64,000 nucleotides of DNA from Ceratodon purpureus (lineage: Eukaryota > Streptophyta > Bryopsida > Pseudoditrichales > Ditrichaceae), in the NCBI GenBank assembly GCA_014871385.1, contig CM026421.1:18402203-18466202 (forward strand). The letters run 5' to 3'. This document shows positions 19,307-53,045 of this stretch, piece by piece. The translations under genes and the position numbers were made by a program. The first letter of the stretch is position 1. Each line of letters opens with the position of its first letter. The notes beneath the pieces were generated by a model, which had not been told where the DNA came from, ran no database searches, and saw nothing but the letters and a program-made list of their open reading frames with translations.

Positions 19307-20375
19307 CAGCCCATTTGTATTAATTACAATCGTTTTGGTACAAAATGCACATTTCAGTGAACTACTCCGGTATTAACACCTCATCTACAAAATTCCGAGT
19401 TCAAAAAATCTAAGTTTGGGAGGGACCAGAAGATGTCTCGGGAGCATCTCCCTGAGTCTGATTGTGGGAGGGAGAACGGGGTGGGCTGGGACTAGGGTCA
19501 CGCATGACCTGGTCGGTGGAATGATGGCTTGGCTCAGGCAGTGATGCGGGACTCGGATCCGACTCTGGCAATTTTGCACCACCGGTAGGGGAGCCCAAAA
19601 TCTCAAGTACTCGCGAAGTAGGCAGGGCACTACCTATCGGCTGGACATTGGGCAGAACTGGACCCGCATTCGAGAAAAGAGTGGCATTACTCATGCCTTG
19701 CAGAACACCCTGCAGTGCCGCCTGCACGGTCTTCTCTATATCCTTTTTCTGCTGTGCCATCTGATCTTGTAATGCTTGATTCCTATCCTTGGTCGCCTGC
19801 AATTCTGCGAGAATAGCTTGAATATCCGGATTAGGAGCGGCTCTCCCCAACGGGGAGGCTTGCCGATCTGGAGGATTGACCCTCTTTTTCTTTTGAGCCG
19901 GCTTTCCAGTACTTCGCGCAGCGCCAGTCTTTCTCCCACTTCCGGATCCCAGCTCCGGTGCAAAACCCGGTCTCTCATCGTCCGTACGTGTAATGTCGAC
20001 GTCAGGAAAATCGAGTCTTCTCCCCACTCCACCCTCAGATGCGGTCTGACTTACCGGATCAGAAGGCAGAGCATCGCTCTCATTGCTAATGTCCGCAGCA
20101 CTGGAGGAGGGGGTCTGTTCCTCGGTGGGGGCATCCTCCTCCAGATCAACATCGTCACCCTCCTCCACAGCTCTGCCTTTCCCTTTCCGCACGGCTCTGC
20201 CGTATTCCGGAAACCGTTCCTTATCGACAAAATATGCGTCGACAGTAAAATCGGTTGGGTCCAAAGTTAATCCAAGTGCCTGAGCTTCGACCATATAAGA
20301 AGAGTCACTATCATCCGCGACCACGAAAGACGAGATCGAGAGCATCTGAAAAAAACAAAGACAAGGTAAACACGG

Positions 20376-20467
20376 TTTAGCTCGACTCGAGCTAAAGTGT
20401 GGAAGTGTGTGCATACATGGTGCATAAGATCAAAACAGTGGAACGATTTAACTCGACTCGAGCTAAA
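20376..20467. repeat. Two element P palindromes in intron 2 of gene A
   Basis: Copies at 20376-20396 and 20447-20467. The second has one arm change (TTTAACTCGA). Both lie between the GTATGT donor and the CAG acceptor, outside coding sequence. Confidence 0.85.
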
Positions 20468-21905
20468 GTGTGGAAACATACCGCGGCGGCCATGAGGGAC
20501 TTCGTTCCCGCATAGAGCTGATAAACCGCCACCCCAGTACTGTAGAAAGTGTCGAGGACCTGCAGGTAGAACTCCATCCTTAACTCGGATGGATACATTG
20601 CGTACCTCCTTTCGTTGAACTTCCTGTTGTCCTTGTACAGTGGGTGGTCCGGAGTTGTGTACTTGCTCAGAGGTTCAGGCGTTGACCCGACATTCTCAAG
20701 TACATTATCATCAATGAGAAACAGGAGTTTGACGGGTTCCATCGCGATTCTGGTCTTCGGGGGGTGTCCGCCAAGTCGCTCGTTAGGAGCGGGTAAATAC
20801 TCAGAGGGGAATCTTCTACGACCACTCAAGGTGTTTCGCTCCACCCAAGTGAGCACCTGGGCGAAGTCCTCATCGTCTCCGCAAATGAGAAGCCAGTGCC
20901 GAACATCGTTAAATTGGGGCTGCCCATACTCTTCGATCATATTGAAAAACTCCATGAAGAAGGGGTTCTCCAAAGTGTAGTTATGCCTCGTCTTGTAGGT
21001 TGGGAGGAACCGGAAGTCGATGATTCCGAATGTAACTGCTTCGCCGGTCAACCTCCATATATCGGAGGGCCAAGATCCGAAGGAGAGTCGAGGCTCCCTG
21101 ATAAATGGGAGGAACCACATCTCAGCTGAAGGACACTGAAATGCATGTCGAACCTTCAGGAAGGTTTTGAAGAACTCAACCGCATATGGGGAGAGATCCT
21201 TGGCCGACTTGTTGCGGAACTGTGTAGCTCTGGAGTTAGTCCAGTACGAGTCTGGAATACCCCAGTCAAGCAGAACGTGCTTCGACTCCTTGGAGACAAA
21301 GTAAGTCTTCTTGAAATGCTTCCAAGCGGGTACATCAAGGCCGTCTCTCTTGAATAAATGGAGCGTTGGATTAATGTTGTTGAACTCCGCTTGAGCTACA
21401 ACCTTACGTTTTCTCCGCTCCGCCCACTCCTTGACCGAGTAGCAGTCCTCCAATACACTCGTATTCTGCTTGATGGTAACCTTCGGATATGTGTACTTCC
21501 GATTTGGCCCAGACTTATGCAGGATGTGCTTACACATCTTCTGGTGATCTGCCTCTGTCAAGTTCCCGAGCCATTTGAAGAACTCCCTTGGAAGCGTCCC
21601 ATCCTTGTCCGGAACGAACCCCTTCTTCTCATAGAATTTCTTATGCGGAGGTTCACTGTCGGGATCAATGAGTCCACCACATGCCGCAGACGCGATCACC
21701 TCCTTCCACAGGTCCCATGTTTCATCACTGGATGTGATGATAAACAGCTCGTTTGTTAGGGAGATAGTGTTCTTCCCTCCCTTCTTCGCCACCATGGCTT
21801 GATGCTTCGCCACATCGATCATAGCGAAGCGCTCCCTGATTGCATTCAGAAAGTTCTGCATATGCACAGGAAGAAACCTTAGACGATGCTGTCTCGGAAC
21901 TACTC

Positions 21906-22025
21906 TTTAGCTCGACTCGAGCTAAATTGATCGAGATACACCACAATATTGAAAACCAAGAAGATTATCAATATTTAGCTCGAATCGAGCTAAACTGCAG
22001 GAAGTTTAGCTCGAGTCGAGCTAAA
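21906..22025. repeat. Three element P palindromes in intron 1 of gene A
   Basis: Copies at 21906-21926, 21974-21994 and 22005-22025, all inside the intron between exon 1 and exon 2. Arms are intact in all three; only the central base varies. Confidence 0.87.
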
Positions 22026-23537
22026 CTGCTAATGCTAATGAATCAGTGAACTTACGTCGTATGTCTTCGACGCTGGATTACTTTTCGGACCTGTACTCCT
22101 GCGGTCCGCAGCACCAGCGGCAGCATTTTTCTTTTGGGGCTTACCATACTTCAGCCACACTTTTCTAGAGGCAAGTATATTGCTCGCCCAAGTTGGCTTG
22201 AAGGGTGCGAGATGGTTCACCCGATTATAGAATGCTGAGATCTTTCGCAGCTTATCATGATCATGCGTCCAAACGATGTACGCATCCTACCTCCTGAAGT
22301 CCCTCAACAACTCCTCACTGGCGTTATCCTCGATATGAGATTTGGACGCCGCCGCGCTGTGTTGCCCGTTGATGATGTGGAATGTACAGCCTTCCAGATC
22401 CTCTTCTTGTTGAGGTCGTGCCTTCGTGTCTGGCATCAGACACAGGGTTTGCTTCTGACCCCTATCAGGCATGTTGACCAAGTAATTCTTCATCTCCTCC
22501 ATGCCCCGCTTCTCATATGCACGGATAGTCCATGCGGCCGGTGCGGGCTTGCACCGCGTCACGTCCACACTGAACTTCTTTGGTTGCCCATTCGTTTTAA
22601 AGACGAACTCGTCCTGGCAATCAGAAAAGAAATTCTGGTAAATGCGATTGGCGTTATCGAAGTATAGGACCTCTCCAACCTTGTTCACCTTTGGGAGTTC
22701 CCCGAGAACAGAGTTCAAACTTGTTGCCAAGTCCTCCGCAGATAAGAGCAAGTTCTTCTTGGGCTTTGGCTTGTCAGTTTTCTTCTCAAGGCCTTTCTTC
22801 TTCAATGGTGAGTGGGGCGTGGGAGTTGCAGAAGCGCCTCGGCTTTGGGATGGAACTATTGCTCTCCCCCTACTGCGTCCTGTCTGTTGGCTCCCCATTT
22901 GACTCCCGGTTGCTGTCACTCCAGAAACGTCAACATGAGATTTTCCGAGGTCCTGCTTCACCTTTGCCTCCGTTGCGCGGAGAGCAAGGGTGCAGACAAC
23001 ATTCCTCAGTTTCCACGCTAGGGATTTCGCCGCGAGAGTTCGTCCATCCTTTGTTGCCCATTTCCTGTCCAGTATTTCTTGTCTCATCGTGGAGACTATC
23101 TCCTCGAAAGGTGAATTGGACAAACTTTCCATTAAGGAAATGGGGTCGAAGAGGTTCTCCGCTACGTCTACTACTATGGAGAAGAGGTATGGATTAGCCC
23201 CGATAGATGAGCAGAGGATCTTTATTTGGTCTTTTCCCTTATTGTCAAACTCGGTGACCTTTGTATCCATATCGATGACCTCGGGATCATCGACTTCTCC
23301 CTTGAAAATGGTTGCGAACGTTAGATATGATGTGTATGCAACCCATCGCAGGGTCCAATTTTTGACCTTGGAGGGGTCTTTGAAGGTCCATGCCTCAAAT
23401 GTGCTTGAGTCATCCCCGTCGTCGTCATCTGAATCAGAGATAGGAACAGGCTTGAAGAAATGTCGTAGCGCCTCAATTACCCTTGCTTTCTCCTCACTGC
23501 AAGGAGGACACATTTACCATTAGACAAATTCAAAGCC

Positions 23538-24090
23538 ATTTAGCTCGATTCAAGCTAAATGTTGATTCTATTAATCAAGTAACCGATGGCATCCCAGCAG
23601 TTTAGCTCGAGTCGAGCTAAACTACACGGGGCCCTTGGTAGCCCAAGGAGTTTAGCTCGAGTCGAGCTAAACTGCTTGGGCTACACGATGGAGCACTCAC
23701 AATTTAGCTCGACTCGAGCTAAACTGCAGTGGATCTCCCGGGTATGTTTCGGGAAGTTCAACTTTAGTTTAGCTCGAGTCGAGCTAAAGTGTTAGTTTTC
23801 CCATATGAACTCTCAGCAGTTTAGCTCGACTCGAGCTAAACTGTAATTAGATACCATAGTTAAATTGCAGTTTAGCTCGACTCGAGCTAAACTGCAGGAT
23901 AGACAGTAGTATCTGACTACAGTTTAGCTCAAGTCGAGCTAAACTGAAGCAATTTATTAGTGAAATTCGAAGTACTTTTAGAGTTTTTGTCATGATTTTT
24001 TTCATTGTGTATGTGAGTTTAGCTCGAGTCGAGCTAAATTGTAGAGCGATAGTTGTCTTCGTCAATCAGTTTAGCTCGACTCGAGCTAAA
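23538..24090. repeat. Array of ten palindromes in the leader of gene A
   Basis: Starts at 23538, 23601, 23651, 23703, 23768, 23820, 23871, 23923, 24018 and 24070. Spacings are 63, 50, 52, 65, 52, 51, 52, 95 and 52 bp, close to whole numbers of DNA helical turns (5, 6 or 9). Arms are nearly always perfect, whereas the intervening sequences are unrelated, unlike a simple tandem duplication. The array lies between the TATA box at 24225 and the gene A start codon. Confidence 0.9.
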
Positions 24091-24224
24091 CTGTTCTTGA
24101 TTTTCAAAGGATTTTTAACGCAATTTCCACAGTTTGAAGTACCTGTCGGCCATTTTATTGTTATTCCTTCAGATTCCGCCGTTGTAAAGCTGATCAAACT
24201 TGTTCTGCCTGCAGAAAGGAAGGA

Positions 24225-24232
24225 TTTATATA
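24225..24232 (-). promoter_or_regulatory. TATA box of gene A
   Basis: TATATAAA on the minus strand, about 710 bp upstream of the gene A start codon and just upstream of the palindrome array. The position is right for a promoter whose leader contains the array. Confidence 0.5.
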
Positions 24233-25606
24233 GGTAAGAAAACGATTCGAGAATTATACAAATAGGTGACATCCTATTACCGTATTCCCGGAAAATGCGG
24301 AAGTATAAACATATTCTAAGGGGACTGTAACAAGATTGATATCCAGATAACATAAACGGGAACTTCAAAGGCAATGCAAATGAAGTTGAAATCCAAAACA
24401 TAAGACACCGAATATGCTACTGCAATCATAAATTTATTCACACATACATAGACACAGTTATAATAGAACATACATAATTCAGACACGAAAACAAAATACC
24501 GTTCACAATGATTTTCAAGTAGAAAGAAATACAAGAAGATTCACACAAGCGCCATTCGAACAGTGAATCAAATATACAAAAGCGTGCGATTTGGCTTGGG
24601 ACGAATCTAACAAAGAGGTTGACAGTATTTAATCTGATTTACAAAATCAGATACAATTCTCAAATAGACACACAAAGTTTTTCATACATTACAATTACAG
24701 TAAAACAGCGATAATTCACAGATTGTGGTAAATTACAAAAACTTAACTTTCACAAAAGTTATAGCTGAATTCATTCTAGACACCAGTATGCAATCCACAA
24801 TACGCATGTATGACTCGATTTGACCTCAAGAAAACCTAAATCCATGCTAGCTTTCGGAAAACAGATTCAGTTTCGAACTGACGAAGTAAGATTATGTAAA
24901 CTGCGAACTGATTGAATAGCAAGAGGGGGATCTACTGACGTCGAGGTTGTTTCGAAGACTTGTATTGCGAAGAAGTCTGCAATCTCCACCTTCCACCGCG
25001 ACTGTCGAAAGAACGATGCTCCGCACTTCGAAATCGACGTTGTAGAACCTCCGCTCCACGAAATAATAGTTGCAGAAATTCAGCACGAACCCAATTGCCC
25101 AAAACCTATAACAAACCCACAAATGGTCCACAGACTCGGAGAGGAAAACACCCGCGCAACTACTGTTATCAAACGAACCCACGAAGTCTTCTTCGCCAGA
25201 AACTATTGAAACCCTAATGAAGAACAAACACTGCGGATACAGTATCAAGAAACCCCAGAACCTAAAACCCTACTTCTGATGCTCCCGAAACTACAAAACA
25301 CTGCGAACAGTACAAAGGAAACACTTCAAAGCAACAGGACCCTGACACCACTTCGCGGCAAAAAGAACAAACGAAAACTCGAACCAAAACTACACAACAA
25401 GAGCGCGCCAGAATGAAAACACACACACAGGAGAAAATGGAAAAACACAGTGGACGAAGTCGGAGTCTGGTTCCGCCCCCTCGCACGGTCCTGTGACCGC
25501 GCCGCCAAAGCGTGTAGCCCTTTACCGCGGGTTTCTTTGTAAATTTAATTTAAAATGCTTCGAAATTGAAATTCGGTAATTCTTGGTGTTTAGAGTAGTC
25601 AATAAT
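24233..25606. other. Spacer between the two divergent genes of element P, proximal part
   Basis: AT-rich sequence, then at 24890-25510 a moderately GC-richer stretch with short unsupported reading frames on both strands. I see no domain, splice-supported exon or palindrome here. It may hold upstream control sequence of gene A. Confidence 0.3.
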
Positions 25607-27230
25607 TTTCATTATGGAATAATAATTTTACTTATATCAGAATCACCAAATGGTAATATCAATATTTTTAAGAATTGCGAGTTAAATATTACTGTCCATT
25701 TTTTCATTTTACTTGTGTTTACCTGATTCGGGTAGTGAGAAAGTGAAAATAACTTTTGTTTAAGAAGTTACTTTAAAGATAGATAGTGCGGTTCACTCTC
25801 CATATTGTTAATCCCATGTGGTTTGGTAAACCTGCTCTTTCTTACCTTAAGAAGAATTCACCATGATGGCTCCAATAACTCACATGGGATTGGGGAACCA
25901 TGACCCTTAATGTGTACTGTGAATGGGGCTGAGGTTACCAACCCAGTGTGAGTTTCAATGAAACCTAAACAGGATAGGGAACTCGTTTTTTCAGGCTTCT
26001 GATGAAATGTATTGGTAATATTTTACAATGCTACACAACATGCTTGCATTATGTGAAGTTGGTTTAGTGTTTTGATTGTATTTGCATTTATATACATTTA
26101 TGAATCTACATTAGATTTTGATTTTTGATTTTTTTGAAGTAACTAAATTTTAATCAATTCAATAATGCTTCTTCCAATTTTGTAATAATAATTTGTAGTT
26201 ATTTGCCGATGCATCAAATTCAAATACACTACTTGCAATGATAATGAATTTCATAATATACGCAAATTGGAAACATATTTACCTAAATATAATCATCATA
26301 TTCCTAAAGTACATGTTAGGAACATAATTTAATTATAATATAATAATATAGTATAGTATACTAAGGTACTAATATATTCTTTTCCAAATTTATTTTTAGT
26401 TATTGATTATGAAACGAGAATAATAATCTATATTCAAGTATACTCAAATCTAAAAATGATATACAAATATATTCGAAATAGTTTTGTAATTATATTACGA
26501 ATGCATCAAATATAAATACACTATTAGCAATGAAAATTTATTTACTATACTATAATTGGGAACATATTTACGCAAATGTTATCATCATATTATTCTTCTA
26601 CAACTTGTTAGTTTAATTATGAATTAGAATTCTATTCCAAATAAATTCCATGCAATTTTGAAGATTTTGGTAATTCAGAATTCATATACAAGCATGTACA
26701 TAGATACTGCAATTTAAAAATATACTTTTCATTATGGAATAATAATTTTAGTTATATCAGAATCACTGATTGGTAATATCAATATTTGTAAGAATTGCGA
26801 ATTAAATATTACTGTCCCTTTTTGTATTTTATTTGTATTAACCGGATACGGGTAGTGAGGAAGTGAATAACTTTTTATAGGAAGTTACTTTAAAGATAGT
26901 CAGTGCGGTTCAGTCTCCATATTGTTAACCCCATAAGGTTTGGTAAACCTCCTCTTTCTTACCTTAAGAAGAATTCACCATGATGGCTCCAATAACTCAC
27001 ATGGAGTTGGAGAACCATGTCCCTTAATGTGTACTGTGAATGGGGTTGAGGTTGCCAACCCAATGTGAGTTCCAATAAAAACTAAACAGGATAGGGAACT
27101 CGTTTTTTCAGGCTTCTGATGAAATGTATTGGTAATATTTTACAATGCTACACAACATGCTTGCATTATGTGAAGTTGGTATTGCATTTTGATTATATTT
27201 GGATTCATATAAATTTATGAATCTACATTA
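25607..27230. repeat. Direct repeat pair of about 490 bp in AT-rich DNA
   Basis: Sequence at about 25607-26110 recurs at about 26733-27225. Shared blocks include CATTATGGAATAATAATTTT and AAGAATTCACCATGATGGCT. The sequence between and after them (26200-26560 and 27480-27840) is itself related, so the whole unit of about 1.1 kb is duplicated. There is no coding potential; probably a MITE-like or degenerate element inside element P. Confidence 0.6.
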
Positions 27231-27599
27231 GATTTGGATTTCTGAATTTCTATGAATGAAAGATAGAGAAGTATGTTTTTTTATTGTCTTTATTAGCATT
27301 CAGCCTCCCCGTTACTAAATTTACAGTAAAATATGGAAATATTATAATACAAAATAAACAAATAGGGTTTATAAATTAAAATTCTATTCAAAAGAAATTG
27401 AACGCAATTTTGGAAGTTTTGAAAAATATCACAAATTCGAGCTTCGAAGTGGACAAATTATGAACAATTGTAAAGGATGAAAATGTACATTTTTATTTTA
27501 TGTAATAATAATTTGTAATCATTTGACTAAAGCATCAAATATGGATACACTATTAGCAATGAAAATGAATTTCATATACTCTAATTGGAAACATATTTA

Positions 27600-29815
27600 C
27601 ATAAATGTTGTCATCATATTCTTAAAGTACATGTTAGTACCATAATTTATTTATAATATAATAATATAGTATAGTATACTAAGATACTAATATATTCATT
27701 TAGAATTTTATATTTAATTAATGATTATAATACTAGAATTATAATCTATATTCAAGTATATACAAATCTTAAAATGATATATAAGTATATTCAAGTATAT
27801 ATATGAAGTACATTGTTAAAAATAATAGTATTTAATTTTAGAATTCAATTCATTTATTATGGCAAATTCTTTATATTTTTTAGAAGGTTTAGGGTTTTTT
27901 ATATTTATTCATGAGAAGCGAATATTTAAACCATGGTATGCCTTGTATGATTGGCATGTATATTACAATAATCTTAATCAATTCATTCACGTTTTACCTT
28001 GACTAATATTCTTACAATTTTATTACATTCTAATAAGAAAGTGGAATGCTTGCTTCATTTGCATAATTTTAAAATACAAAATTCATAATTCATAGATTCA
28101 AACGAAATTTACTACTACATTTACTAGTTAGCATGGACATATTAGAATACGAGATATACAAATATGAAAGCATCAGATGAAACACTGGTTTTCGTCTAAA
28201 AGAACCCTGTTTTGAAGGCATTCCATTCCAAAAATTGTTTACAATCCACACGGGGAATACCATCAGCAAAAGTTACCAAAAGATGAAAGTCATCTCTTTT
28301 CACATCTATGGTTTCCAAAAATTGTATAATCTAGCGGTCGTCCTACCTACTCCTGAAGTCCCCATTCCATATCTGAGTTGAATAGCAGCAAAAAGTAAAA
28401 TCGTAGAAGTATACCGAAGATGCCTGCAAGTTCTGGAGAAAAGAGAAAAACATATTCAGATGGTATGATGTTTAGGGTTTAAAACGGAAAAGTGCATGTC
28501 AAAAGCAAGGACTCTTCCTCCTAACAATCAGAACGAACTCAGCATGAGCCATTAAAATTCTGCGCAATACATACAGCAAACGCAATCTATTATTATGAAA
28601 ACATCAAACTGAGGACAAGGTTAAGGGTTCTGAGGAGATAACAATTCACCTACTCACTCATGTGGTGGGCTCCCCAAATCCACGCTCCCCTCCTCATTAG
28701 AATCAGGCATAGAGAAGCCCTCGCCGGAGGTGAGGGGAAACTTGATGTTGGAAGCGTTCATAATCTCCAGTTGCTCTAGACCATGTGCAATAGTCCAATC
28801 CCACTCCACACCGGGCTGCATTAGGCGTGCAATGAGGTTCCACGGGGGAATCTCTACGCCGCGACCACGGGCGCGTTCCACAGCCATAAACCAGGGACGA
28901 AGCTCCTCCACTCCTTGTGGGGAAACAACCACCTCCCACTCGTCTGGCGGGTAACTTGACACCCTAAAACCACCGCCCGACCTCCTCATCACAGCAAATG
29001 AACTACAAGTAGATGAAACAGAAGGGAAACTAAGAATGAAACAACTGTTTCGTCGCCCAAAGGAACTTATGCTTATAAAGCAGCATGGGCGGGAAGCCGA
29101 ATGTTCCAGAGTAACGAAGGGGACTTTGACCAGACTCGGTAACGAGACTTTGACCGATGTGGGCTTTCGAAAGTCCGGATTTACTTAAATGTGTCATTTT
29201 AATTTATTATTAAAGAATTGATTTATGGGATTGTATGCTTAGACAAGCATCTAGAGCCTTTCCCCATATTATATATTAATACTACAATTATAATTATGAT
29301 CATTGGTTTAATACGTTTCATTTGAATCCATAATTTAAGAGTTTTTTAAAAAAAATGAATGAACCAAACATTCCACTTTCTTATGAGAATGTAATAAAAT
29401 TGTGCAAATATAACTCAAGGTAGAACATTAATGACTTGATTAAGGTTTGTGTAATTTCCATGCCTATCATACAAGGCATACCATGGTTAAAATATTCGCT
29501 TCTCATGAATAATTATAAGAAACCATAAACTTTTTAAAAAATATAAAGAATTTGCCATAAAAAATGAATTGATTTCTATAATTTAATACTTTTATTTTTA
29601 ACAATGTACTTCGTATATATACTTGAATATATTTGTATATCATTTTTAGATTTGTATATACTTGAATATAGATTATTATTCTCGTATTATGATCAATAAT
29701 TAAATATAAAATTGTAAATGAATATATTAGAGCCTTGGTATACTATACTATATTATTATATTATAATTAAATTATGATAGTATCATGTACTTTAAGAATA
29801 TTAGGCTTGCAGTTA
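27600..29815. mobile_element. Foldback element with about 460-bp inverted arms
   Basis: The left arm (about 27600-28060) and the right arm (about 29360-29815) are inverted copies. Both contain ACCATGGTATGCCTTGTATG or its complement and a TATAGTATAGTATAC-like run. The loop carries one small ORF. A further partial copy of the right arm follows directly (about 29830-30130). Long arms with a short unique centre are typical of foldback or large MITE-type elements. It is nested in element P, and its own target duplication was not determined. Confidence 0.55.
28654..28989 (-). CDS. Small 111-aa ORF in the foldback element
   Basis: Starts at an ATG (MRRSGGGFRV) and ends LGSPPHE at a TGA. It has Trp-containing segments (EWEVVVSPQGVEELRPWFM, VEWDWTIAHGLEQLEIM) and an acidic end, reads like a folded protein and is GC-richer than the surrounding DNA. 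A GCTTATAAAG box lies about 85 bp upstream on the same strand. I do not recognise the family. It could also be one exon of a larger gene. Confidence 0.45.
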   Translation of the reverse strand: MRRSGGGFRVSSYPPDEWEVVVSPQGVEELRPWFMAVERARGRGVEIPPWNLIARLMQPGVEWDWTIAHGLEQLEIMNASNIKFPLTSGEGFSMPDSNEEGSVDLGSPPHE

Positions 29816-30300
29816 GGTCAACGTACTTTCACCCCATGCCTATCATACAAGGCATACCATGGTTTAAATATTTGCGTCTCATGATTAAATATTAAAAATT
29901 CAATCTTCTAGAAAACGTATATAATTTGCCATGAGAAATGAATTAAATTCTATAATCTAATACTATTATTTTTAACAATGTATTTCGTATATACTTGAAT
30001 ATACTTGTATATCATTTTAAGATTTGTAAACATTAGATTTTAGTTAATTATTCTCGTACTATTCTTAACTGGACATTAAATTGTTAATGAATATATTAGT
30101 ACCTACTTCATATTGATTGCATATATCACATATAATAATTAAATTGAGCAAAAATACATATTTAGTAAATGGAGGTATAAATATTTGCAACAATATACTT
30201 CCCTCTATCAACCTGACTCACGAAATTCAAATAGTTTCAAACAATTTTTGATTTAATTTTATTCCATGTACGACATATTTAATGTCCCTAGAAATGCCTT

Positions 30301-30384
30301 AACCCTAAACCCTAAACCCTTAACCCTGGACCTAAGACCCTGAACCCTTAACCCTGAACCCTATACCCTAAACCCTGAACCCTG
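30301..30384 (+). repeat. Degenerate interstitial telomere-like repeat
   Basis: Runs of CCCTAAA with variants (CCCTTAA, CCCTGAA, CCTATA) over about 85 bp. CCCTAAA is the plant-type telomere unit. Degeneracy and internal position indicate an old interstitial block. Confidence 0.7.
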
Positions 30385-30957
30385 ATAGAGGAAGAAAAGT
30401 TCGCGGCCAAAAGTCAACACTCTGTCTGGCGCTATAGGGACTTCCAACCCATCCCATTTGATTTAATGCACCAAATATTTTGCATCTGCATCTATCTAAA
30501 GGGCCGATAAGTATGGAAAGTGGTAATTCCCGCGCATTCTCACACCCCAAAATGTGGGGGGACGAATGGTCATGCATGATTCCCGCCTATTTTCAAAACT
30601 CAAGCGGCATGAAAAGTTAAAACGGTCACACGTTAGAGAATGACCTCTGGAATCGTCCCCGCTTGAAGTCTTTTCTCTACTCACTTGCTTCTCTCGCTTG
30701 TAGGAGCTCTCGACGCTCACTTGGAGGTGGTTGTTTTCTGGGCGGAAGCTGTATTGCGCCGTTTCTCTTGTACGTCTTCTCTTTAGTTCTCTCCGATCAT
30801 CAGTACACTTCATTGATTTCTGCTTGTTGTATGCTTTCCTTTGATTCAAGTCATGGTGTATTTGTAGTGTCTTTCTTTACTTCTTACAGACGTTTTAGAG
30901 CGGACACCGTAAGCGTACTCTGAGTCTGCGACTCAGAATTCCGAAGATGGAAGCACC
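30385..30957 (+). other. Upstream region of the element P transposase candidate
   Basis: Non-coding and of mixed composition. It ends at a TATA-like box. No repeats of the element family are present until just after the TATA box. Confidence 0.35.
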
Positions 30958-30965
30958 TATTTAAG
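30958..30965 (+). promoter_or_regulatory. TATA-like box of the element P transposase candidate
   Basis: TATTTAAG followed by CGCCGC. The same TATTTAAG box occurs before the two plus-strand genes of the Mutator-like element (39143 and 44176). The palindrome array starts about 25 bp downstream, where the transcript should begin. Confidence 0.5.
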
Positions 30966-30987
30966 CGCCGCTTTTTGCGGACTGCAG

Positions 30988-31338: not shown

Positions 31339-31433
31339 CTGCGCCTGGGATAAGTTCTCAAATTTAGAGATTGGTTCCCTTTAAGGAGTATAATATGTTC
31401 TCACAATATTTTGTCTGTTGCATTTCAGATACA

Positions 31434-42900: not shown

Positions 42901-43701
42901 CATTCCCTGCATAGACTTGGCGGCGAGCTTAGAGGATCCTGCAGCAGCTGGGGGCAACTCAAAAAGAACCGGACCATCAAACTTCGCAGGCAAGTACTCT
43001 ACTCTCTCGTGTGCAATAGTGGAATAGTCTATCTTTTTCAAAATGTTTTTTGACCCACGCGTCTTAGCAAGCTGTTGAAGGAGGGGGACAATGCTAACTG
43101 TGACCTGGGACAATGGAGGAGAGACATTGGAAGGAGGAGCATCTGCGTGGACCTTAGGCACGAACTTGACGGGACTGACTTCGTCATCAGAAGAGAGAGA
43201 TATGACGGTCGGAGGAGGTTTCTCTACATCTGAAGTTTCGATACCAGGCTCGACTTTGACTTTGACATCACGAGGTAAGGGAGTCTGAATTGTGCAAGTA
43301 GAAGAGCGACGGGGGGTGAGGATCTCAGTGGATGCAGCCATAAGAGAATCAGTAAGACCATAGACTCTATAGGATCCAGGGAGGAGTCTCCACTGCAACA
43401 TGTTGTTCTCATCTCTCACTGAAGGTTGCCCGAGGGTGTGGGTAACCTCGGCAGTAACGTCATCAAAGATCTCCTCCTCTATACTGATGGTATCTTCACG
43501 GAAGTGGAATCTGAGACTCAGGCGAAGAGAGGAGACTGTACCTAGACCATCGTCATCTACGCGAAACCTAAGAGGGATGCCCATGCCTTGGGCATACAGA
43601 CAGACCATCCCCATGATCGCTGGTAACTCAGGCAAGAAGAGAGAAGTGTGACTGTACTGGCGAAGCAATATTGCAAGAGCAAAGTGAGAGGAATGATGCA
43701 T
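39932..43701 (-). pseudogene. MULE transposase with WRKY-GCM1-like and SWIM zinc fingers, one frameshift
   Basis: Starts MHHSSHFAL. The N-terminal region (about 270 aa) ends LSFRSSNCV. Near 42813 one extra base shifts the frame, and the protein continues GWLRCTNEECDFL, a Cys/Cys...HxH finger completed by HIGTHDHPV. The MULE DDE core follows: VYDATYCRVMTIAT, then FMADNAQANWNAV, then CLFHWTQN. A GTATTA donor after GGFMTE and a TCTGCAG acceptor (about 41430-41535) lead to a last exon with HNKWLQASG. That exon ends with a SWIM finger (CTCPAF...FTYCKHLYY). Transposase binds the TIRs and cuts and joins DNA in the nucleus. Apart from the single shift the gene looks complete. Confidence 0.85.
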
Positions 43702-44242
43702 CGCTGTTGATCATTATATTCAGGTCGGAATGTCCATGTGGATAGGTGGAGAATGATTCATTCTGTTACGTAACGAATGTATGATTTAAGAGGGACGGCG
43801 CTAACTATTTGGAATGAGACTTTTTGCTGGCCGAAGTATAGCAGGTAAGATATTAATAAATGTGCTTTAATAATTTCAATCGTGGCGCAGAGTCTATTAG
43901 TTATGAAGTTTGGTAAGATTGGATTGAGCCGTCTTTTAAATTCTACATTTAAAACAATGAATATAAAAAGGAGCATGCTTTCAAGTGCTTGATTCTAATC
44001 TTCTAATTTTTTGTGTGCTTGAATTTATTCTTTATATTTAAAGAATAATATTTTAAACTACACTTCAGAATAGAACTGTTATGGAAATTCTTAATATAAA
44101 GAGTGTATAAAATGTGTATGGTGTTAAGATTCTATATCAATTTAGGGTTGTATCCAAATAGTTGTTCCTTATAGGTATTTAAGCGGGCAGGAAGTTCTTC
44201 AGAGAGTCTTTTTGTGAGAGAGTCAGTCCTTTGGTAAGACAC
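43702..44242. promoter_or_regulatory. Divergent promoter region between transposase and gene B
   Basis: AT-rich 540 bp separating two head-to-head genes. On the plus strand a TATTTAAG box at 44176-44183 stands about 60 bp before the gene B start. A clear TATA box for the transposase side was not found. Confidence 0.5.
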
Positions 44243-47200
44243 ATGAAGCACAGTGAAGGGCCATCTCCCTCCACTTATGTCACTCCTAAACCTAGACGAA
44301 AACGAGGTGTTACAGATTTTACGGATAGAAGAGCGAGGAAGAGGAGAGAGTCACGTAAGAAGGTAGAATTTCAACGTGACCATGTGAGTGCACCTGTAAA
44401 AACGAGAGGATCAGGTTTGCCTGTAGCTTTAAAGTTCTGTAGCATTCGTAAACTCATTCTAGACTCTATTGTGGAGGAGGAAGAGGAGTGTATAGAGAAT
44501 ACCGTCGTCGAGAATCAGGAGGAGGGACAGCAGATACTCTTAAGTGGAGTTCAAGGTGAGGCCATGACGGAAGAATTAGTTTTTATTTGTAGTCAAAGAG
44601 TAGAGTCACCGCATCCATCTATCAGATTTAATGACTCTTTGACGGGGGAGTCAAATTCTCAATCAGATCTACGTTTCATCTCCGACGAGGTTAGTATTAC
44701 TAAACCGTCTTAAATGTTGGGAATTCTTTATATTAATTCAATAATTTAGTATGAACTCAATTTACTATCAACTCTATTTAAATTCGGCAACTCCGTGAGG
44801 TCCCTCAATTATCACGCATTTTATTTTAAATGGTTTGGGTAGGGTATCGAAAGGATAAGGGAAGTCGATGTTCGAAGAAGGGTTTCACTTGCTCAGGAGG
44901 GGTGCGACATCGAGCAGCTGCAACTCATTGCGAGGAGAGCAAGAAGTGGAATTCTGAATGCAGGGGAAGGGGGGGAGGCAATGGCAGCAAGGTTAGAGCA
45001 GATGAGGGGCGGAGAGGAGGAGCAAGGCGACGCAGAGGCCGCGGGGCAGGCGCCTGTCGAGATGGAGGCGGACGTGGGCGGAGGTGGACAGGACCAACCC
45101 GAGCTGGTTGGGGACGCGAGTGAGGATCTGGAGAGGACGGACGGGGACGATGGAGAGGAAGACCCAGAAGATGGAGACCAGGTACGGAATCATTACCTTC
45201 AAAAGTTGAGAGTACCACGTGTTTCAATGATGAGGTTTTTGAATGGGGTGTTGTACGAATCTTGGGTTTGTACGATTTGGGGAATAGAATAGAATATTTG
45301 GGGAAATGAGTTGGGTTCGTACGATTTGGGGAAGTGATTTGTTTGTTTTCGGTGCTTTGGTTTGTGGGTTGGGGTTGTGGGTTTGATTACATTATCGGAG
45401 TTTGTGGGTTCGTACATTGCTGGGGGCTGCCTGGAGTGACTAATTGCTTGCTCTTGGGATTTCGGAGCCTCGGTCGTAGGGCTGAATTTCTCAAGCTTTT
45501 TTTAATTATATTTTCGAGAGAGCTGCTGCTGTTGACCATTTGCAATGATCTTGTATCGATTTCCGTATGAGGTCTGTTGTACGGGTCAATTGTTGATGTC
45601 GGGATTTTATGTTGGAAGTTGTAACTTGTGGGTAGTCGGTTGTAGGTTGGTGGATGTGGTTAGTTGGGTTGCGGTGTTTTTGTTTTTGGTTGCAGCTGCT
45701 TGGAGCTGCGTGGGTTGCCTGATTGATTGGTCTTGGAACTTCGGGATGTATACACTTGGTGTGGGTGATGTCGTTTGGTGTTTGAGTGTGTGTTTGGCCT
45801 CACTCGGCTCCAGTGTTGCTTCTGTGTCGTGGGATGGGAAGTACTAGGTGTGTGAAGTGTTCTGGCAGTAGAAGTGTCGTGCCTCTGCGTTCTGGCGGCC
45901 TCACGATGCATTTTTATAGTCTCATGTCTTGAACATCGTTCAATGGTTGTAGCATTAGATTTTAGAGAGATGTTTTGGTAAAGGTCGGAGGGTACAATGG
46001 TGTTTCGGTGGGTGCCATGAGTTTGGATATCACACTGTGTCGATGTAAGCTGAGTCGAGCTACTTCAGTGCTTGGTCGAGCTAGTGCTGCCGGATTAATT
46101 GTGTTCATAGAATTTGTATTCTCTTCGATGATTTCAGATCCTTCTGTGCTTTTAGAAGTGATTGTATTTGCATGTCTCAAGAAAATCTGAAGTTGTTATC
46201 TGTTTTGTTGGTCTGAGATTCTTCTAGAAACACATCATAGGTAATGTTGTACCAACTTGTGTATACACGTTTTGAATAGTTTCAAACCATTTTCAAGAAG
46301 TATATGTATTTTAGTAATTTGTTTTTTAATTTTTTGAAAATTAAAAAAACCCAGAGCCTACTGTCGTCAACGACAGTAGGCCGAGGGCATGAATATGAAT
46401 TTCAGGATTTCTGCAATTTTTGTTTTTTTATTCTTTTTTACACATTTTGTGTTATAGATTTGATTGCAAACTCACAAAATAAAAATAAAATTCTAAACAT
46501 TTTGGTTTTATTTTATGCATTTTATTAATTCATTTTCAATATTCTGAAAATTAAAAAAACCCAGAGCCTACTGTCGTCAACGACAGTAGGCCGAGGGCAT
46601 GAATATGAATTTCGGGATTTCTGCAATTTTTCTTTTATTTTTCTTTTTTACACATTTTGTGTTATAGATTTGATTGCAAACTCACAAAATAAAAATAAAA
46701 ATCTAAACATTTTGGTTTTATTTTATGCATTTTATTAATTCATTTTCAATATTCTGAAAATTAAAAAAACCCAGAGCCTACTGTCGTCAACGACAGTAGG
46801 CCGAGGGCATGAATATGAATTTCGGGATTTCTGCAATTTTTGTTTTTTTATTCTTTTTTTGACATTTTGTGTTATAGATTTGATTGCAAACTCACAAAAT
46901 AAAAATAAAAATCTAAACATTTTGGTTTTATTTTATGCATTTTATTAATTTATTTTCAATATGCAGAATTGCTCACAAATTGTTAATTAAAATCTGAATT
47001 TTTGTTTTTATTTTCGGTATTTTCTTGATTTATTTTTTTTATTTTGAATTTTTGAAAAACCCCAAACCTACTGTCGTCAACGACAGTAGGCCGGGGGCAC
47101 TTCAATGAATTCGGGGATTTTTTATTTGTTTGTCTTCTTTTCTTTTGTTGGTGATATTGTGTGATAATGAAATGCATAATTGCTCACAATTTGTAATTTA

Positions 47201-50200
47201 AAATCTGAAATTTCCTAGATTTTCGGTATTTTCTTGATTAATTTCTTTTATTTTGAATTTTTGAAAAACCCCAAACCTACTGTCGTCAACGACAGTAGGT
47301 TTGGGGCACTTCAATGAATTCGGGGATTTTTTATTTGTTTGTCGTTTTTTCTTTTGTTGGTGACATTGTTTGATAATAAAATGCATAATTACTCATAAAT
47401 TGTTAATTAAAATCAGAAATTTCGTAGATTTTCGGTATTTTCTTGATTTATTTCTTTTATTTTGAATTTTTGAAAAACCCCAAACCTACTGTCGTCAACG
47501 ACAGTAGGTTTGGGGCACTTCAATGAATTCGGGGATTTTTTATTTGTGTGTCTTTTTTTTTTTTTGTTGGTGACATGGTGTGATAATGAAATGCATAATT
47601 GCTCACAAATTGTTAATTAAAATCTGAATTTTTTTTTTAATTTTCAGTATTTCCTTGATATTTAATTTTTATTTTGAATTTTTGAAAAACCCCAAACCTA
47701 CTGTCGTCAACGACAGTAGGCGGGGCCACTTCAATGAATTCGGGGATTTTTTATTTGTGTGTCTTTTTTTTTTTTTGTTGGTGACATGGTGTGATAATGA
47801 AATGCATAATTGCTCACAAATTGTTAATTAAAATCTGATTTTTTTTTTTAATTTTCAGTATTTCCTTGATATTTATTTCTTTTATTTTGAATTTTTGAAA
47901 AACCCCAAACCTACTGTCGTCAACGACAGTAGGCGGGGCCACTTCAATGAATTCGGGGATTTTTTATTTGTGTGTCTTTTTTTTTTTTTGTTGGTGACAT
48001 GGTGTGATAATGAAATGCATAATTGCTCACAAATTGTTAATTAAAATCTGATTTTTTTTTTTAATTTTCAGTATTTCCTTGATATTTATTTTTTATTTTC
48101 AATTTTTGAAAAACCCCAAACCTACTGTCGTCAACGACAGTAGGCCGGGGGCACTTCAATGAATTCGGGGATTTTTTATTTGTTTTTTTTTTTTTTTTTG
48201 TTGGTGGCATTGTGTGATAATGAACTTCATCATTGCTCACAACTTCTTAATTTAATTTTGAATATTTTGTAGATTTTGAGTATTTTCTTTATAATATTTT
48301 AAATTTTGAAATGTTTAAAAAATCCCAAGCCTACTGTCGTCAACGACAGTAGGCCGAGGGCACACCAATGAAGTTGGGGATTTTTGGTTTTGTTTTAATT
48401 TTATTTTTCTTGTGATAATGGAATGCATTAATATGTTGCAGCTCTGGCCGGGGGAGGGGTATTGAGATTCGGGATTTTTTAAGTCTTCTTTCTTTTCATT
48501 TTTTCTTTGAATGTTTGTGTAATGGAATGCAATTATGCTCACAAAGTCTAATATGTTTTTATGTGTTTTTAAGATTTTATTGGGAGCCCTGTCTAGGTTG
48601 TGGTTTGATTCTTCATAGTTGCAATTTTTTCTAATAATTATCAATTTGCTTAGGACTCTGATGGTGATCATCTGGGGAGCGAACGTCAAGACCCTACGCC
48701 AGCAGAAACTGAGGTATTTCATTCAATTTACAATTTATATTCTTTTTTTATGTTAATGATTTTGAGTTCTATTCGCCCTCTTCCCTTCTTTGTTTCCTAC
48801 TCTTTTAATTATGGAAGTTAATCCTCTCTTCATTTCTCCTACTCTAGGTATCATCCAATGCTCCTGTGATGTCCGCCACCTCTCCCATTTCTGTGATCAA
48901 TGTTTCCGATCTATCGGATTCATTTGATCAGCCTTATTGTACCTGTGATGTAGCCAACCCTGTAGGTGTGGAAAGTGGACCTCTCGAGGTCCACTCTCCT
49001 CAGTACATGCCTACCTCGCCAGTGTACATGCCTACCTCTCCAGTGTACATGCCTACATCCCCGGTGTATGAGCCAACCTCCCCGGGCTATATGCCCACGT
49101 CTCCTCCACAGGGCTCCCCGCCGATGTCTCCACCCTCTCCTTCCTCGCCGATTAGAGTCAGGAGGCCAGCCCATGTCGTCTTTGCTCTGCCGGCTATTTT
49201 GCCGTGCCCAGCCCAACAGACCAGGCGATTTTCGAGGAGGCGCCGTCACTGGAACTGTAGACAGTCTAAGGAGTACTATAGTCGATCCTGACGTAGATAG
49301 TTTTATCAATCACGATTGATGATTGAGTTGTTAAAAGAGAGATGACAGTATGAAGATATATTGTTACTTTCTTTTACATACTTGTCGACTTTGCATGACT
49401 TTCTTCGATTGTGCTTGTTCTCCTAATTTGCGTACCTTCTGGCAGGTTACGCAAACACAAGATGTGTTGGTGAAACCATCTTGTCTGTTAAACTTGAAGA
49501 CTGCCACAGAAGGGGAATTGGAACATCAAACCAAATACAAGGTGGACTCCAACGCCGTCATCAACAAGCTCAGGATCAAGCCATCGCAGAAGTCCCGAAT
49601 GTCGGTGCCCCTGTGCAGGATGATCCCAATGGCAAAGGTCAGACCAGTGGGCGAAGTGGGTGTGCAGCATTTGGAGCGGGAGTTCGTCAAGGGGTATAGA
49701 GATGGCGACCGCGTCATGTACATCTCCATGTACAACAACGAAGAGCAGACACGAGATGTTACGGATGAGGTCATGGCTAGATGGAGCCCATTGTGGAGGG
49801 ACGCGAATGATGCATTTGAATCTGAGCTTCTAAGTGACGAGGACTGGTCGCAATTCTCGGAGAAGATGTTTTTTGTCTGGGAAGGTAACCATCGCCTCTC
49901 AGCATGGCTTCGTCATATCAACAGGCATCATGCAGACGACCCGTCATGGCACATATCTGTGAACTGCATAGTACTCGATCCCCGTGGCCATGTTGGCAAT
50001 CTTCTTCACGCAATGCATGACATCAACTGGTAAGTACTTGTTTCTTTTTTCCTGTTTTTCATTTGTTACTTTGTCTCATCTCTTTTATTCATCATACGGA
50101 TTTGGGTTCATTTTCAGGTCGACTGAGAATGACCACGTCAAGAGTAATCTCCCTGCAAAACTATTTCGAATCCGCTCTTTCGGAATGATGAAGCTGGAGG

Positions 50201-53045
50201 AATTCAAAGACCTCCTCAGTCCTGAAGAGTATGACGCATGTTTGAAGAACAAGCCACCTAATCCCTCCTGGTTTCCCTTGACAACTAAAATTTTCATCGC
50301 ATTTTTGTACCGAGTAAGTCCTACCTCCTCTCTCTATTTGCTTCTTATTATTCAATACTTATGAAATTTTCTAAGTCTGAATTCTCTTTCTCCAGCGGGA
50401 ACTCGCTGCGGCCTCCGATGAAGCAGCCAATGCCTACCGCATGAAGACACCCGAGGATGAGCAGTCTGCAAGTGCAGTTTGGGATGTCATGAATGAGGCA
50501 TCAGAGAGAATGGTCGAAGCCATCAAGAAGAAGGACTTTACCAAGTACTTGGCCATTGCAAATCCCAAGAATGGTGACGACTTCCTCAACGAGGTGACTC
50601 ACTGATCATTGTTCAATTCACTGTTTCGTTTGACTTCAATAATTCCTGTATTTATCTTTTTCAAACTTCGGTGCTTCTTGCAGATTAATCGCCATTACAG
50701 TCTCAACAATAAGCCTGAGATGTCAGTAGATAAGCTTCAGAGGCTTGTTCCAGCGGCCGTTGAGGCCAAATACAAGGCTCGTTGGTTGAAGTGGTGGAAC
50801 TCATCCCCGAGTGCTCGAACGTCTTACAGATTTCTGCCATCTGAATTCAAAGACACCGAATTCGACCCATGGTTGAACAAAGCTTCATTCTGGGCTGGGG
50901 TAATTTTCATAAAAAATCCATTCCAATTCCTTGTTCCTTTAATTTTTTACCATATTCATTCTTCAATGCTACTTATATGAATTTTGTATTACAGTTGGAG
51001 GAAGCCGTCATCCACGAAGTCGAGGACGTATTCAAGTCTGAGAACCTCGATATCAATTGGATGGCATTTCCTGATGTCCAACAGCCGGGCGATTTTATGG
51101 AGAGTTCACGTATTCTCTTGTGGGACAAGGCCTTCCCTACGTTCATTGGAAAAAAAGTTGAGAAGCACTTCGACAAGAAGTCCAACTTCGCTAAATTCCC
51201 TGGAACCGCTCAAGTTGTCAAGCGGGTTACTTACCGGTACATTACCTTACTTAATCTCATTTCCATTTCATAGTTTTCATTGTAATTGTTTCTTATACTT
51301 ACCTCCTTCTTGTCTTCCCATAGGTACTTCAAGCGAGAGCTTATATTTAAGGGGGCCATGAGCGTTCAGCACCTCTCGAAGTACTTCAAGCTTTGGACGC
51401 AGACATCCTCGGACCAATGTATGTACACTCCTCAGCAGATAGAAAGGTACAAAGCTGCTCACCTGGATGCTGGATGCTGGTATCTTGATTGTATTGGTGG
51501 TTTCACTATTGACTCCGAGGCGGAACTCAAGATGCTGCACGATGGGGGTGCGGTTGTGGTGGAGGACTCCGTGGATGATGCAGAAGGTCGTGAAGGAGAG
51601 CAGGATCAGTCTTCTGCTCCACCACCGAAGAGAGGGAGAGGAAGGCGACTGAAATCTCTGCGTTCTCGGTCAGAGGCATCACAGCAAACTGGTGCGGAGT
51701 CTTCCGCGCCAGCTGAGAAGGCACCAGAGCCGTCTCCGGGTGTTGTCGTTACCAACCCTTCTCCAGCTTCTTCGCCGGCTCCTTCATCGATCAATGCTTC
51801 GGAGATCACCAGAGGTCTCCTTCAGCAGAGGAAGGCCAAAATATATCCTCAAACAACTTCTTCGGTTGGAGCTTCGATTTCCACACATGTTTCCGTCTTC
51901 AACTCATCTGTGGATTCCATGTTACGGCGAAATAGGAGACAAGAGAGAAAAGGTGGCGACCCGGATTGGATCAAGACTCAAGACTTCATTCGCAAGGTAT
52001 GTTCCGATATTTTGACATTTAATGGATTCTGCCACCTCTACTCGCTATGTAGTTACTAACTCTCCTTTCTTGTTTGCTCAAGTTTGGAGCAGGCCGCGAA
52101 AACGAAGTTCCGGACCGCTGCAAACAAGAGAACCATCTGGGAGTCGACTTGATCATTGCCGACATCCCTGAGAATCTTCCCGTCCCATCCGTTTCCGTTC
52201 CCCCCACGAGTATTCCGCCTTGGAACACTCGCGAGAAGGATTATGTGTTCGACATCTTCCGTTTTGCAGATGAATTCCTGCAGAATGATGGTGCCCTCTG
52301 CCTCATCTACAACACTGATCAGAAGCTGGCTAAGGATATCGACGAAGAAGCTGCTGGTGGTGACTACGTGCTCTTCAAGGACTGGTGGGGCGTCAATGTT
52401 CTCGGCCTCACTTCTCCTACGAACCCCGAGAACTTGGTACTTTTCCTAAACATACCCTTCTCTTTACTTATTGATAACCCTTCCGCTTAATTTTACTCAC
52501 TAGTTTTGCTTGACTGCAGACTATGCGGTTCTGGATTCGCGTCTACGTTCGTAGTGGCAGTACTTTCTCCTTCCAGACGAAGAAGGAAGACCTGATACAT
52601 GGGCTCCTCAACATTACCGAGAGTGATGCCATTTTCAACCTCACCGATCTGGATTCGCAGCTCATGAATGGGGAGGTGCCGTGGAGAGGCCCAAGGGAGA
52701 AATCCCCTGAGATGATGCAGGGCATAATTGAGGAGCTGTCAAAGCCCGGCGACATAGTCCTTGATTGGAATGCTGGGACAGGTAACTCTTCATACATATC
52801 TCTGCTTAATTATTCTTCTCGTTTTTCCCACAGTTTCTCATTTCTTTGCTACGCTACCTTCGCATACAGCACAGAATGCCAAGGTCTGTGTCACTATCCT
52901 AATACGCCACCTAGAGACAAGCTCAAGAATCCAAGACTGACCTCCTTCTCTGGAACCCAGCTTACCAAGTGTTGTTTCATGATGAAAATCTCCTACTTGT
53001 ACCACTCAAATGAAGATGCTTTGCTGCCTAGGAAGAGAGAGTAAT
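44243..53045 (+). CDS. ParB/DGQHR-like plus methylase-like multi-exon gene of the MULE (gene B)
   Basis: Model of at least 11 exons. Exon 1 44243-44691 (ATG after a TTG that is not needed); exon 2 44841-45180; a 3.47-kb intron; 48654-48713; 48848 to about 49280 with five CTD-like heptads; 49446-50030 with the ParB-like core (FFVWEGNHRLSAWLRHIN). Further exons follow from about 50118, 50396, 50685, 50994, 51325, 52083 and 52520. The last ones hold a permuted methylase-like fold: HLGVDLIIADIPENLP (DPPY replaced by DIPE), NDGALCLIYN, then KPGDIVLDWNAGTG (motif I). Most joins are GT..AG and keep phase. The join from the heptad exon to the ParB exon is unresolved, and the 3' end after 52780 is uncertain. 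Fold and order resemble bacterial and phage ParB-methylase fusions; activity is doubtful. Confidence 0.6.
46357..48353. repeat. Ten-copy hairpin array at about 210-bp pitch in intron 2 of gene B
   Basis: A perfect palindrome with arms CCTACTGTCGT and ACGACAGTAGG around CA starts at 46357, 46567, 46777, 47067, 47276, 47485, 47697, 47910, 48121 and 48330. Spacings are 210, 210, 290, 209, 209, 212, 213, 211 and 209. The 24 bp are identical in all ten copies, while the roughly 185-bp spacers are AT-rich and drift. There are two spacer types, copies 1-3 (CCAGAG before the site) and copies 4-9 (CCCAAA), with copy 10 more diverged. Confidence 0.95.
49004..49108 (+). other. Five RNA polymerase II CTD-like heptads in gene B
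   Basis: Reads YMPTSPV three times, then YEPTSPG, then YMPTSPP, matching the CTD consensus YSPTSPS except at positions 2 and 7. Synonymous codons differ between the units (ACC TCG CCA, ACC TCT CCA, ACA TCC CCG, ACC TCC CCG, ACG TCT CCT). The repeat is therefore kept at the protein level rather than being a fresh DNA duplication. Ser-5-Pro-6 is kept in every unit. Confidence 0.85.

Follow-up and report, generated by a model that had tools for sequence, protein, structure and literature searches.

Among described systems, the one closest to what we present here is that of the VANDAL elements. In the portions available of the reports, VANC21 binds a 9-base motif whose tandem repeats stand upstream of VANA21 as well as in introns of VANB21 and of VANC21 itself (PMC5735166), and it induces a loss of DNA methylation (PMC5735166; PMC10398659). 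Here we describe, in a stretch of 64,000 nucleotides of the moss Ceratodon purpureus (contig CM026421.1, positions 18,402,203 to 18,466,202; the window), two genes, A and B, that appear to be accessory genes of two different DNA transposons: a DUF7869-bearing element (element A) and a MULE-like element. Their predicted proteins would join a ParB-like region to a methylase-like one, and both elements contain arrays of long palindromes, which are new here and absent from the first-pass annotation of the window. We hold, with moderate confidence, that the accessory ParB/pseudo-methylase protein binds the palindromes of its own element in a VANC-like manner, countering silencing or marking the DNA for transposition.

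The likeness to VANC comprises an accessory gene of a MULE-like element, an element-private tandem motif in an intron of that gene, repeat turnover, and subfamilies with different motifs. As far as the VANDAL layout is described in the portion available, parts of it recur here, in the accessory-gene introns of both elements and before the DUF7869 gene of element A; the gene B element showed no array upstream of its transposase. The differences are that the protein here is ParB plus methylase-like, likened to VANC by layout with VANC sequences outside the comparison, that the arrays also occur in a second, unlike element, and that the system here is known from sequence alone.

Other described systems share single parts. 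Bacterial and phage ParB-methylase fusions, such as Bacillus cereus Bce_0392 (PMC5512222, in the portion available), join ParB to an adenine methylase domain; here the genes belong to intron-bearing plant transposons, a long helical part separates the domains and the catalytic motif is replaced. Dinoflagellate and charophyte retrotransposons have captured DNA methyltransferases, so that transposons carrying a DNA-methylase gene are known, but these are, in the portion of the report available, C5 cytosine methylases in retrotransposons, with no mention of palindromes or of ParB (PMC5890265). Bacterial ParB-parS shares the ParB-N fold and clustered palindromic sites on its own DNA; it differs in that gene A lacks the GxxR arginine and in its site sequences, and no helix-turn-helix domain or ParA turned up here, although no search was aimed at them. 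METTL14 and MTA9, catalytically dead MT-A70-type partners with a degenerate motif and a nucleic-acid binding role, likewise keep the methylase fold with a degenerate catalytic motif; they belong to another family, are host genes and have no ParB domain. In a search of open-licence papers, with subscription papers and preprints outside it, no report of a comparable transposon gene was found.

The ParB/methylase-like proteins of genes A and B

Gene A probably starts near position 24153 and probably contains three introns, to judge from its reading frame:

24143 to 24153, minus strand: predicted first exon of gene A with the start codon (ATGGCCGACAG), read from the sequence and in frame with the next exon
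22056 to 23496, minus strand: exon with the N-terminal region and the ParB-like domain; in-frame TAG at 22287-22289 in the window copy
22203 to 22580, minus strand: ParB-N/sulfiredoxin-like domain (IINGQHS...YNRVNH), by predicted fold
20482 to 21855, minus strand: exon with the helical region and the permuted methylase-like domain
20482 to 21129, continuing into the exon 19410-20345, minus strand: methylase-like domain, with DFR at the place of motif IV and YAGTK at that of motif I
19410 to 20345, minus strand: last exon, with the end of the methylase-like fold and then a low-complexity tail

The sequence of gene A gave no significant match, only chance-level ones, against Pfam, PHROGs, NCBIfam and the PDB sequences, and its domains were assigned by predicted structure. 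The model of the exon 22056-23496 matched ParB-N/sulfiredoxin structures in 38 of the 50 PDB matches listed, including ranks 1-35, and the model of the exon 20482-21855 matched permuted N6/N4 methyltransferases in all 50 rows listed, with two aligners. The top Foldseek match of the latter was chain B of METTL3-METTL14, and the rotifer N4CMT structure 8s9o was also among the fold matches. The modelled N-terminal domain thus has a predicted ParB/sulfiredoxin fold, and the second a predicted permuted, Rossmann-like fold of beta-class methyltransferases.

The expected catalytic residues of gene A are replaced. DFR takes the place of DPPY, with D and F invariant in 24 of 24 alignment rows; the second glycine of motif I is a lysine (GTK or GGK in 9/9 of the relatives examined that cover the place); and the arginine of GxxR, a box that lies in the nucleotide pocket of ParB CTPases, is absent in all 27 rows (GQHS and variants). 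The in-frame TAG of the window copy is absent from all 10 other copies aligned.

Gene B is read on the plus strand:

44243-44689, 44843-45181, 48654-48713 and 48848-49256, plus strand: 5' exons of gene B, the last junction being uncertain
49446-50029, 50118-50313, 50396-50593, 50684-50899, 50995-51236, 51324-51996, 52083-52436 and 52520-52781, plus strand: main exons of gene B
49608 to 50177, plus strand: putative ParB-like domain (EGNHRLSAW...HDIN), the most constrained part
51954 to 52781, plus strand: permuted N6/N4 methylase-like domain (DIPE, DWNAGTG), truncated in the window copy
between 52848 and 52849: deletion junction, with about 1.5 kilobases (kb) lost after motif I relative to copies L041-L045

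The eight exons between 49446 and 52781 form one continuous frame with GT-AG ends at all seven introns, and the splice sites and open frame are also present in the copies L041, L042, L043, L044 and L045. The deletion in the window removes the end of the methylase domain; L041 reads on past that point as ...GDIVLDWNAGTGASIKAAQAVGRHILAFEEDE. The first-pass annotation had ended gene B at 53045, which is post-deletion sequence, and had begun gene A short of its probable start.

The intact gene B of L041 matches the Pfam family N6_N4_Mtase (PF01555) with an expectation value (E) of 7.3e-10 and 39.6 bits, for a cut-off of 26.7; L044 reaches 29.1 bits and the window exon alone 20.6, under the cut-off. 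The methylase part also matches the DNA methyltransferases of PHROGs (E 9.6e-11), and a four-copy profile matches, in the PDB, DpnA (8.2e-5 over the chain as a whole and 1e-3 in its best stretch) and CcrM (4.1e-4), the latter spanning motif IV and motif I. In phages, this part was matched by 434 records at E up to 1, the best listed at 2e-5; among the 20 listed, 10 are annotated methylases and 10 carry no annotation. By these sequence matches, the C-terminal domain of gene B is classed as permuted beta-class N6/N4 methylase-like.

Motif IV of beta-class methylases is (D/N/S)PP(Y/W/F). In gene B it is DIPE or DVPE in 7/7 copies, and a profile search found 25 relatives, of which 18 were examined: all 13 that cover the place read D-x-P-E, then N or G, then LPVP. 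Motif I is DWNAGTG in L041 and L045, AGIG in L043 and EWSAGTG in L044 (the window ends after DWNAGT, and L054 and L055 lack coverage), with variants such as NASTG and KAATG among the relatives. The first-pass statement that the DPPY-type motif is absent therefore extends to every relative examined that covers the place, with DxPE in B and DFR in A, and the suggestion drawn from it, that binding is likelier than methylation as the retained job, is upheld. Gene decay was considered as the cause of these losses and rejected for whole families, because the replacement motifs are themselves conserved.

The ParB-like stretch of gene B gave chance-level matches only against Pfam, PHROGs, NCBIfam and PDB profiles. 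It keeps GNHR at the GxxR box in 7/7 copies. The whole protein had no match at E 0.01 among 5.8 billion proteins (7993 candidates scored), and viral contigs searched with gene B and with the gene A parts A1 and A3 gave pattern matches, none of them confirmed. Relatives of both genes do occur elsewhere; for gene A they include an annotated protein of the moss Physcomitrium patens (P0045, A0A7I4AG42).

The repeat of the C-terminal domain of RNA polymerase II is YSPTSPS. At 49004-49108 of the window, in the exon 48848-49256, gene B encodes five heptads (YMPTSPV/YEPTSPG/YMPTSPP) that resemble it, and YMPTSPV-like heptads are also present in the diverged copies L044, L045 and L060 and, as far as they were read, in L059, L061 and L062.

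The order of a ParB-like and then a methylase-like region is common to both genes. Trimmed profiles of A and B, from deeper alignments, matched each other weakly, best at the motif I block (E 0.0086, equalled by none of 200 column shuffles) and separately at the G-x-H box of the ParB region (E 0.034, equalled or bettered by 7 of 200); column shuffling is a lenient control that destroys local order, and reversed profiles scored 18.1 vs 24.9 and 14.5 vs 19.6. Profiles from shallow alignments gave no match. Since the matches are in register with the motifs listed in the first-pass annotation, all of which are present at the places given there, a common architecture of the two proteins is likely from sequence. 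The proteins do align, weakly and at the two key motifs. They are too diverged to separate one ancestry from two captures, and the proposed spread of a single captured fusion between element classes stays a conjecture.

The domains suggested by that annotation are partly supported, three of the four being right and the fourth plausible: a ParB-like, DGQHR-type region in gene A (ParB-N/sulfiredoxin by predicted fold), a methylase-like region in gene B (by sequence, PF01555) and in gene A (by predicted fold), and a ParB-like region in gene B, for which the motif order and the weak match to gene A speak, set against the lack of a significant family match.

Palindrome arrays and constraint on gene B

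The palindromes are 21-25 bases long, mostly perfect and mostly intronic:

23539 to 24090: 10 palindromes like TTTAGCTCGANTCGAGCTAAA, gene A intron 1
21906 to 22025: 3 palindromes, gene A intron 2
20376 to 20467: 2 palindromes, gene A intron 3
19286 to 19306: 1 palindrome, just 3' of gene A
30988 to 31338: 8 palindromes with a spacing of 47-48, directly upstream of the DUF7869 gene
16549 to 17397: 3 palindromes of an AGGTCGA-like variant, near the left end of element A
34393 to 34723: 3 palindromes near the right end of element A, one of them mixed and two of the AGGTCGA variant
46357 to 48353: 10 palindromes CCTACTGTCGTCAACGACAGTAGG in gene B intron 2, with a usual spacing of about 210 bases (0.00 expected)

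With up to 2 mismatches, element A has 30 palindromes like TTTAGSTCGANTCGASCTAAA where 0.01 are expected, and all of them lie inside the element, 3 within about 1 kb of each end; the B-type palindromes lie, 10 of 10, in gene B intron 2. The A palindrome is probably kept in other species, because the read-through ends of several gene A relatives encode the translations expected from it, LARVELN, FSSSRAK and close variants.

Two types were found among the copies of gene B. Type I is present in the window, L041, L042, L043, L044, L061, L062 and L063, and the second type, GGTGYCTGCTTTCGGAGCAGACACC, in L045 (8/8 units) and L060 (2/4 units, the other two being close variants). The ParB exon of L045 and L060 is 73-74% identical to that of the window, and that of the type I copies examined 80-95%. 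Within a type, the palindromes of different copies are 88-100% identical, with 38-71% for the 70-base flanks and 43-50% for shuffles (10 comparisons of consensus units, chosen by an arm-fixed pattern that itself favours arm identity, with one unit for L061 and four for L060). The palindromes themselves had been detected beforehand in a scan for self-complementarity and nothing else, and that step is free of this bias. The four comparisons against the L044 type gave 0.88-0.92 for the palindrome, 0.38-0.59 for the flanks and 0.45-0.49 for the shuffles, the flanks being at chance mainly against this type, and the window against L044 gave 92%, 50% and 49% (the two flanks) and 49%, respectively. 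The centre of the L044 palindrome differs from that of the window, the arm sequence being kept within the type.

In the diverged pairs among L041, L043, L044 and L045, the ratio of non-synonymous to synonymous divergence (dN/dS) is 0.06-0.08 for the ParB part (dS 1.1-1.9) and 0.39-0.46 for the methylase part; the ParB part is the most constrained part of gene B in these copies. L045 is a mosaic, with a methylase half near that of L041 (dS 0.057) and a ParB half far from it (dS 1.8), and its palindrome is of the second type, so that the palindrome type tracks the 5' half of the gene. We take this pairing of palindrome and ParB half as a lead, no proof.

The two elements, their copies and neighbours

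As the first-pass annotation had stated, genes A and B sit in elements of different build; the one is DUF7869-bearing and the other MULE-like:

16394 to 34858, no strand: element A (element P of the first-pass annotation), about 18.5 kb, its ends coinciding with those of a second copy
31368 to 34271, plus strand: DUF7869 gene (Pfam PF25273, E 9.2e-31), with an in-frame stop at 33201-33203 in the window copy
18036 to 18863, minus strand: NIF/Scp-type phosphatase-like gene (Pfam PF03031, E 1.1e-7), with an in-frame stop in the window copy
about 38258 to 53547, no strand: MULE-like element with gene B, about 15.3 kb, bordered by CTGCTGGCCAGAG at either end; its terminal inverted repeats, judged by eye, are about 70-75 bases long
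39932 to 43710, minus strand: MULE-like transposase reading frames, with a SWIM-like motif at E 0.2, below the cut-off

The second copy of element A, on contig C10 (L056-L058), is colinear with it in long blocks at 88-97% identity, and the homology ends at 34858 and 16394 in both; the right end carries an uncertainty of about 7 bases, and the C10 stretch 13441001-13443399, part of gene A, lay outside the comparison. No terminal inverted repeat was seen at either end beyond the palindromes. In the C10 copy the DUF7869 gene is an open frame of 955 amino acids and the phosphatase-like gene is open over 275. The DUF7869 gene is the probable transposase-like gene of the element; its comparison with the PDB gave chance-level matches only. 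The NIF/Scp-type gene resembles phosphatases of the polymerase II C-terminal domain. The usual motif of such phosphatases is DxDx, and the activity is doubtful here because that place holds DLNG.

Individual copies are damaged. The window copy of element A has in-frame stops in all three genes (the TAG of gene A and those of the DUF7869 and NIF genes), the window copy of gene B has its deletion, and the older copies L054 and L055 have stops. Genome searches, which covered the 362-Mb assembly in 151 contigs, gave at least 102 exon matches for gene A with 46 of 996 candidates scored. Among the gene A copies listed, most of those with several stops are on one large contig, C6 (110.5 Mb), and near-identical copies lie on many contigs, a pattern that would fit a non-recombining sex chromosome acting as a graveyard.

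The gene B element has the structural marks of MULEs: long terminal inverted repeats, a target duplication and many copies. Its right terminus is common to three other copies, and the duplication, of 13 bases, was seen in one copy, that of the window; MULE target duplications usually measure 8-11. Pfam MULE models had no match in the transposase frames, and we regard the label as plausible. The transposase has at least 85 matches in the genome (the best 85 of 3180 candidates scored), and the ParB exon of gene B occurs in at least 45 places (48 of 5492 candidates scored), which is a lower bound because the places listed are partial and omit the copy in the window. For 14 of the 45 gene B copies listed, there is a listed transposase at a distance of at most 15 kb, upstream and divergent in 14/14; given that the transposase matches are the 85 best of 3180 candidates, the remaining 31 copies are not evidence of its absence.

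Several further arrangements were observed. At about 12955500-12973400 of contig C7 (L045/L048), a gene B element with palindromes of the second type lies inside another MULE-like element, at a place that matches 42999 of the window; its mosaic gene joins a diverged 5' half to a 3' half like that of the window. In L041, the stretch at about 9340-9770, which separates gene B from the right terminus of the element, might encode one more gene on the opposite strand. A 3.4-kb repeat at 1-3450, 9712-13160 and 34859-38258 of the window is apparently the long terminal repeat of a Gypsy-like element, in which a pol-like frame (3485-7636) and a gag-like frame (7637-9469) were recognized by eye; the repeat encloses a long reading frame of its own, of 558-734 amino acids (GVEMARVQC or GVEMAHVQC...). 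Its third copy adjoins element A, and it is this copy that the gene B element has entered.

Proposed function and its alternatives

We propose that each protein consists of a ParB/sulfiredoxin-like domain (by predicted fold in A, putatively in B), a helical middle part and a permuted methylase-like domain which, with its catalytic motif replaced, would probably serve as a binding or scaffold module and not as an enzyme. The placement of the arrays, the constraint on the ParB part and the pairing of palindrome and gene suggest that the protein recognizes the long-palindrome arrays private to its element subfamily, located in the introns of the element and, in element A, also upstream of the DUF7869 gene. 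Loading there would shield the non-coding DNA of the element from silencing, as VANC does for VANDAL elements, or else it may mark the element's own DNA for transposition. A constrained ParB part, a replaced catalytic motif and palindromes kept amid changing flanks together argue for a sequence-specific binder acting on its own element, and the anti-silencing effect is favoured because VANDAL21 is the nearest worked-out system by layout.

Several observations weigh against this proposal. The palindromes could not be matched with a defined DNA-binding domain, the ParB identity of gene B is without a significant match, and the MULE-like or DUF7869 protein could be the palindrome binder instead. 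The region upstream of the MULE-like transposase yielded no palindrome, only two palindrome types occur among the gene B copies examined, and a more diverged copy (C2:52062, L059, 69%) has no repeated palindrome within the 5 kb examined. VANDAL21 motifs are, in the portion of the report available, 9 bases long and in one orientation, vs 21-25-base palindromes here. Outside the L044 type the flanks exceed chance (0.56-0.71), still below the palindrome, and the units of tandem arrays evolve together. The ParB and methylase domains of gene B differ in dS and hence in history, and the close pairs, L041-L043 and L041-window, are less telling, with a dN/dS of 0.10 and 0.34 for ParB and 0.36 and 0.60 for the methylase part. 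The palindromes are neighbours of the ParB exons, in the 5' half of gene B, so that linkage alone would give the same pairing, also in L045.

The rival that fares best, though we think it rather unlikely, is that the palindromes are sites of the transposase, MULE-like or DUF7869, for transposition or its repression, and that the ParB/methylase-like protein acts otherwise. Many transposases bind internal or subterminal repeats, and in element A palindromes come within about 1 kb of both ends, with eight directly upstream of the DUF7869 gene. In the MULE-like element of the window, however, all 10 sites are in gene B intron 2, away from the ends, and the transposase that neighbours L044 is 96% identical to that of the window (residues 57-503), although gene B and the palindrome centre differ between them; this comparison was made without L045 and L060.

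A bolder form of our own proposal, doubtful as a whole, would be a eukaryotic ParB-parS-like system, in which a ParB clamp would load at the private palindromes, spread and exclude the host silencing machinery, with the dead methylase fold as the sequence reader; two unlike element classes would have the system in common, and in each of them a separate palindrome code would change along with the ParB half of the gene.

It is improbable that the proteins are active N6-adenine or N4-cytosine methylases marking their own palindromes. The recognizable motif I of gene B (DWNAGTG), its significant Pfam match and the existence of eukaryotic beta-class-like methylases, with the rotifer N4CMT among the matches, would agree with activity; against it stand the replacement of DPPY in both genes (13/13 relatives of B covering the place), the lysine in motif I of gene A (9/9 relatives) and the weaker constraint on the methylase part than on ParB in diverged copies. 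Similarly improbable is that the ParB-like domain cuts or nicks DNA in an NTP-dependent way when the element is excised, replicated or repaired: a Bacillus cereus ParB-methylase is reported to nick DNA non-specifically (PMC5512222, in the portion available) and gene B has GNHR, but gene A lacks the GxxR arginine in every row, and the private, conserved palindromes would be left unexplained. The idea that no protein is dedicated to binding the palindromes, which would instead work as DNA cruciforms or as RNA hairpins (in intron folding or as small-RNA decoys), agrees with their being long, mostly perfect and mostly intronic, and yet we consider it very improbable, given that the arm sequence is conserved within a type beyond what pairing alone requires and that 8 of the 30 sites of element A lie upstream of the DUF7869 gene.

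If the proteins do bind the palindromes of their own elements, as we propose, the finding bears on how transposons evade DNA methylation, which has been worked out for few elements, VANC being the plant case found. The moss elements offer a candidate second solution made from bacterial-type parts, one that is multicopy, has open copies and has a candidate target for each subfamily. The elements also extend what is documented of ParB and beta-class methylase domains among eukaryotes, and their palindrome arrays make the system testable for binding and anti-silencing in moss.

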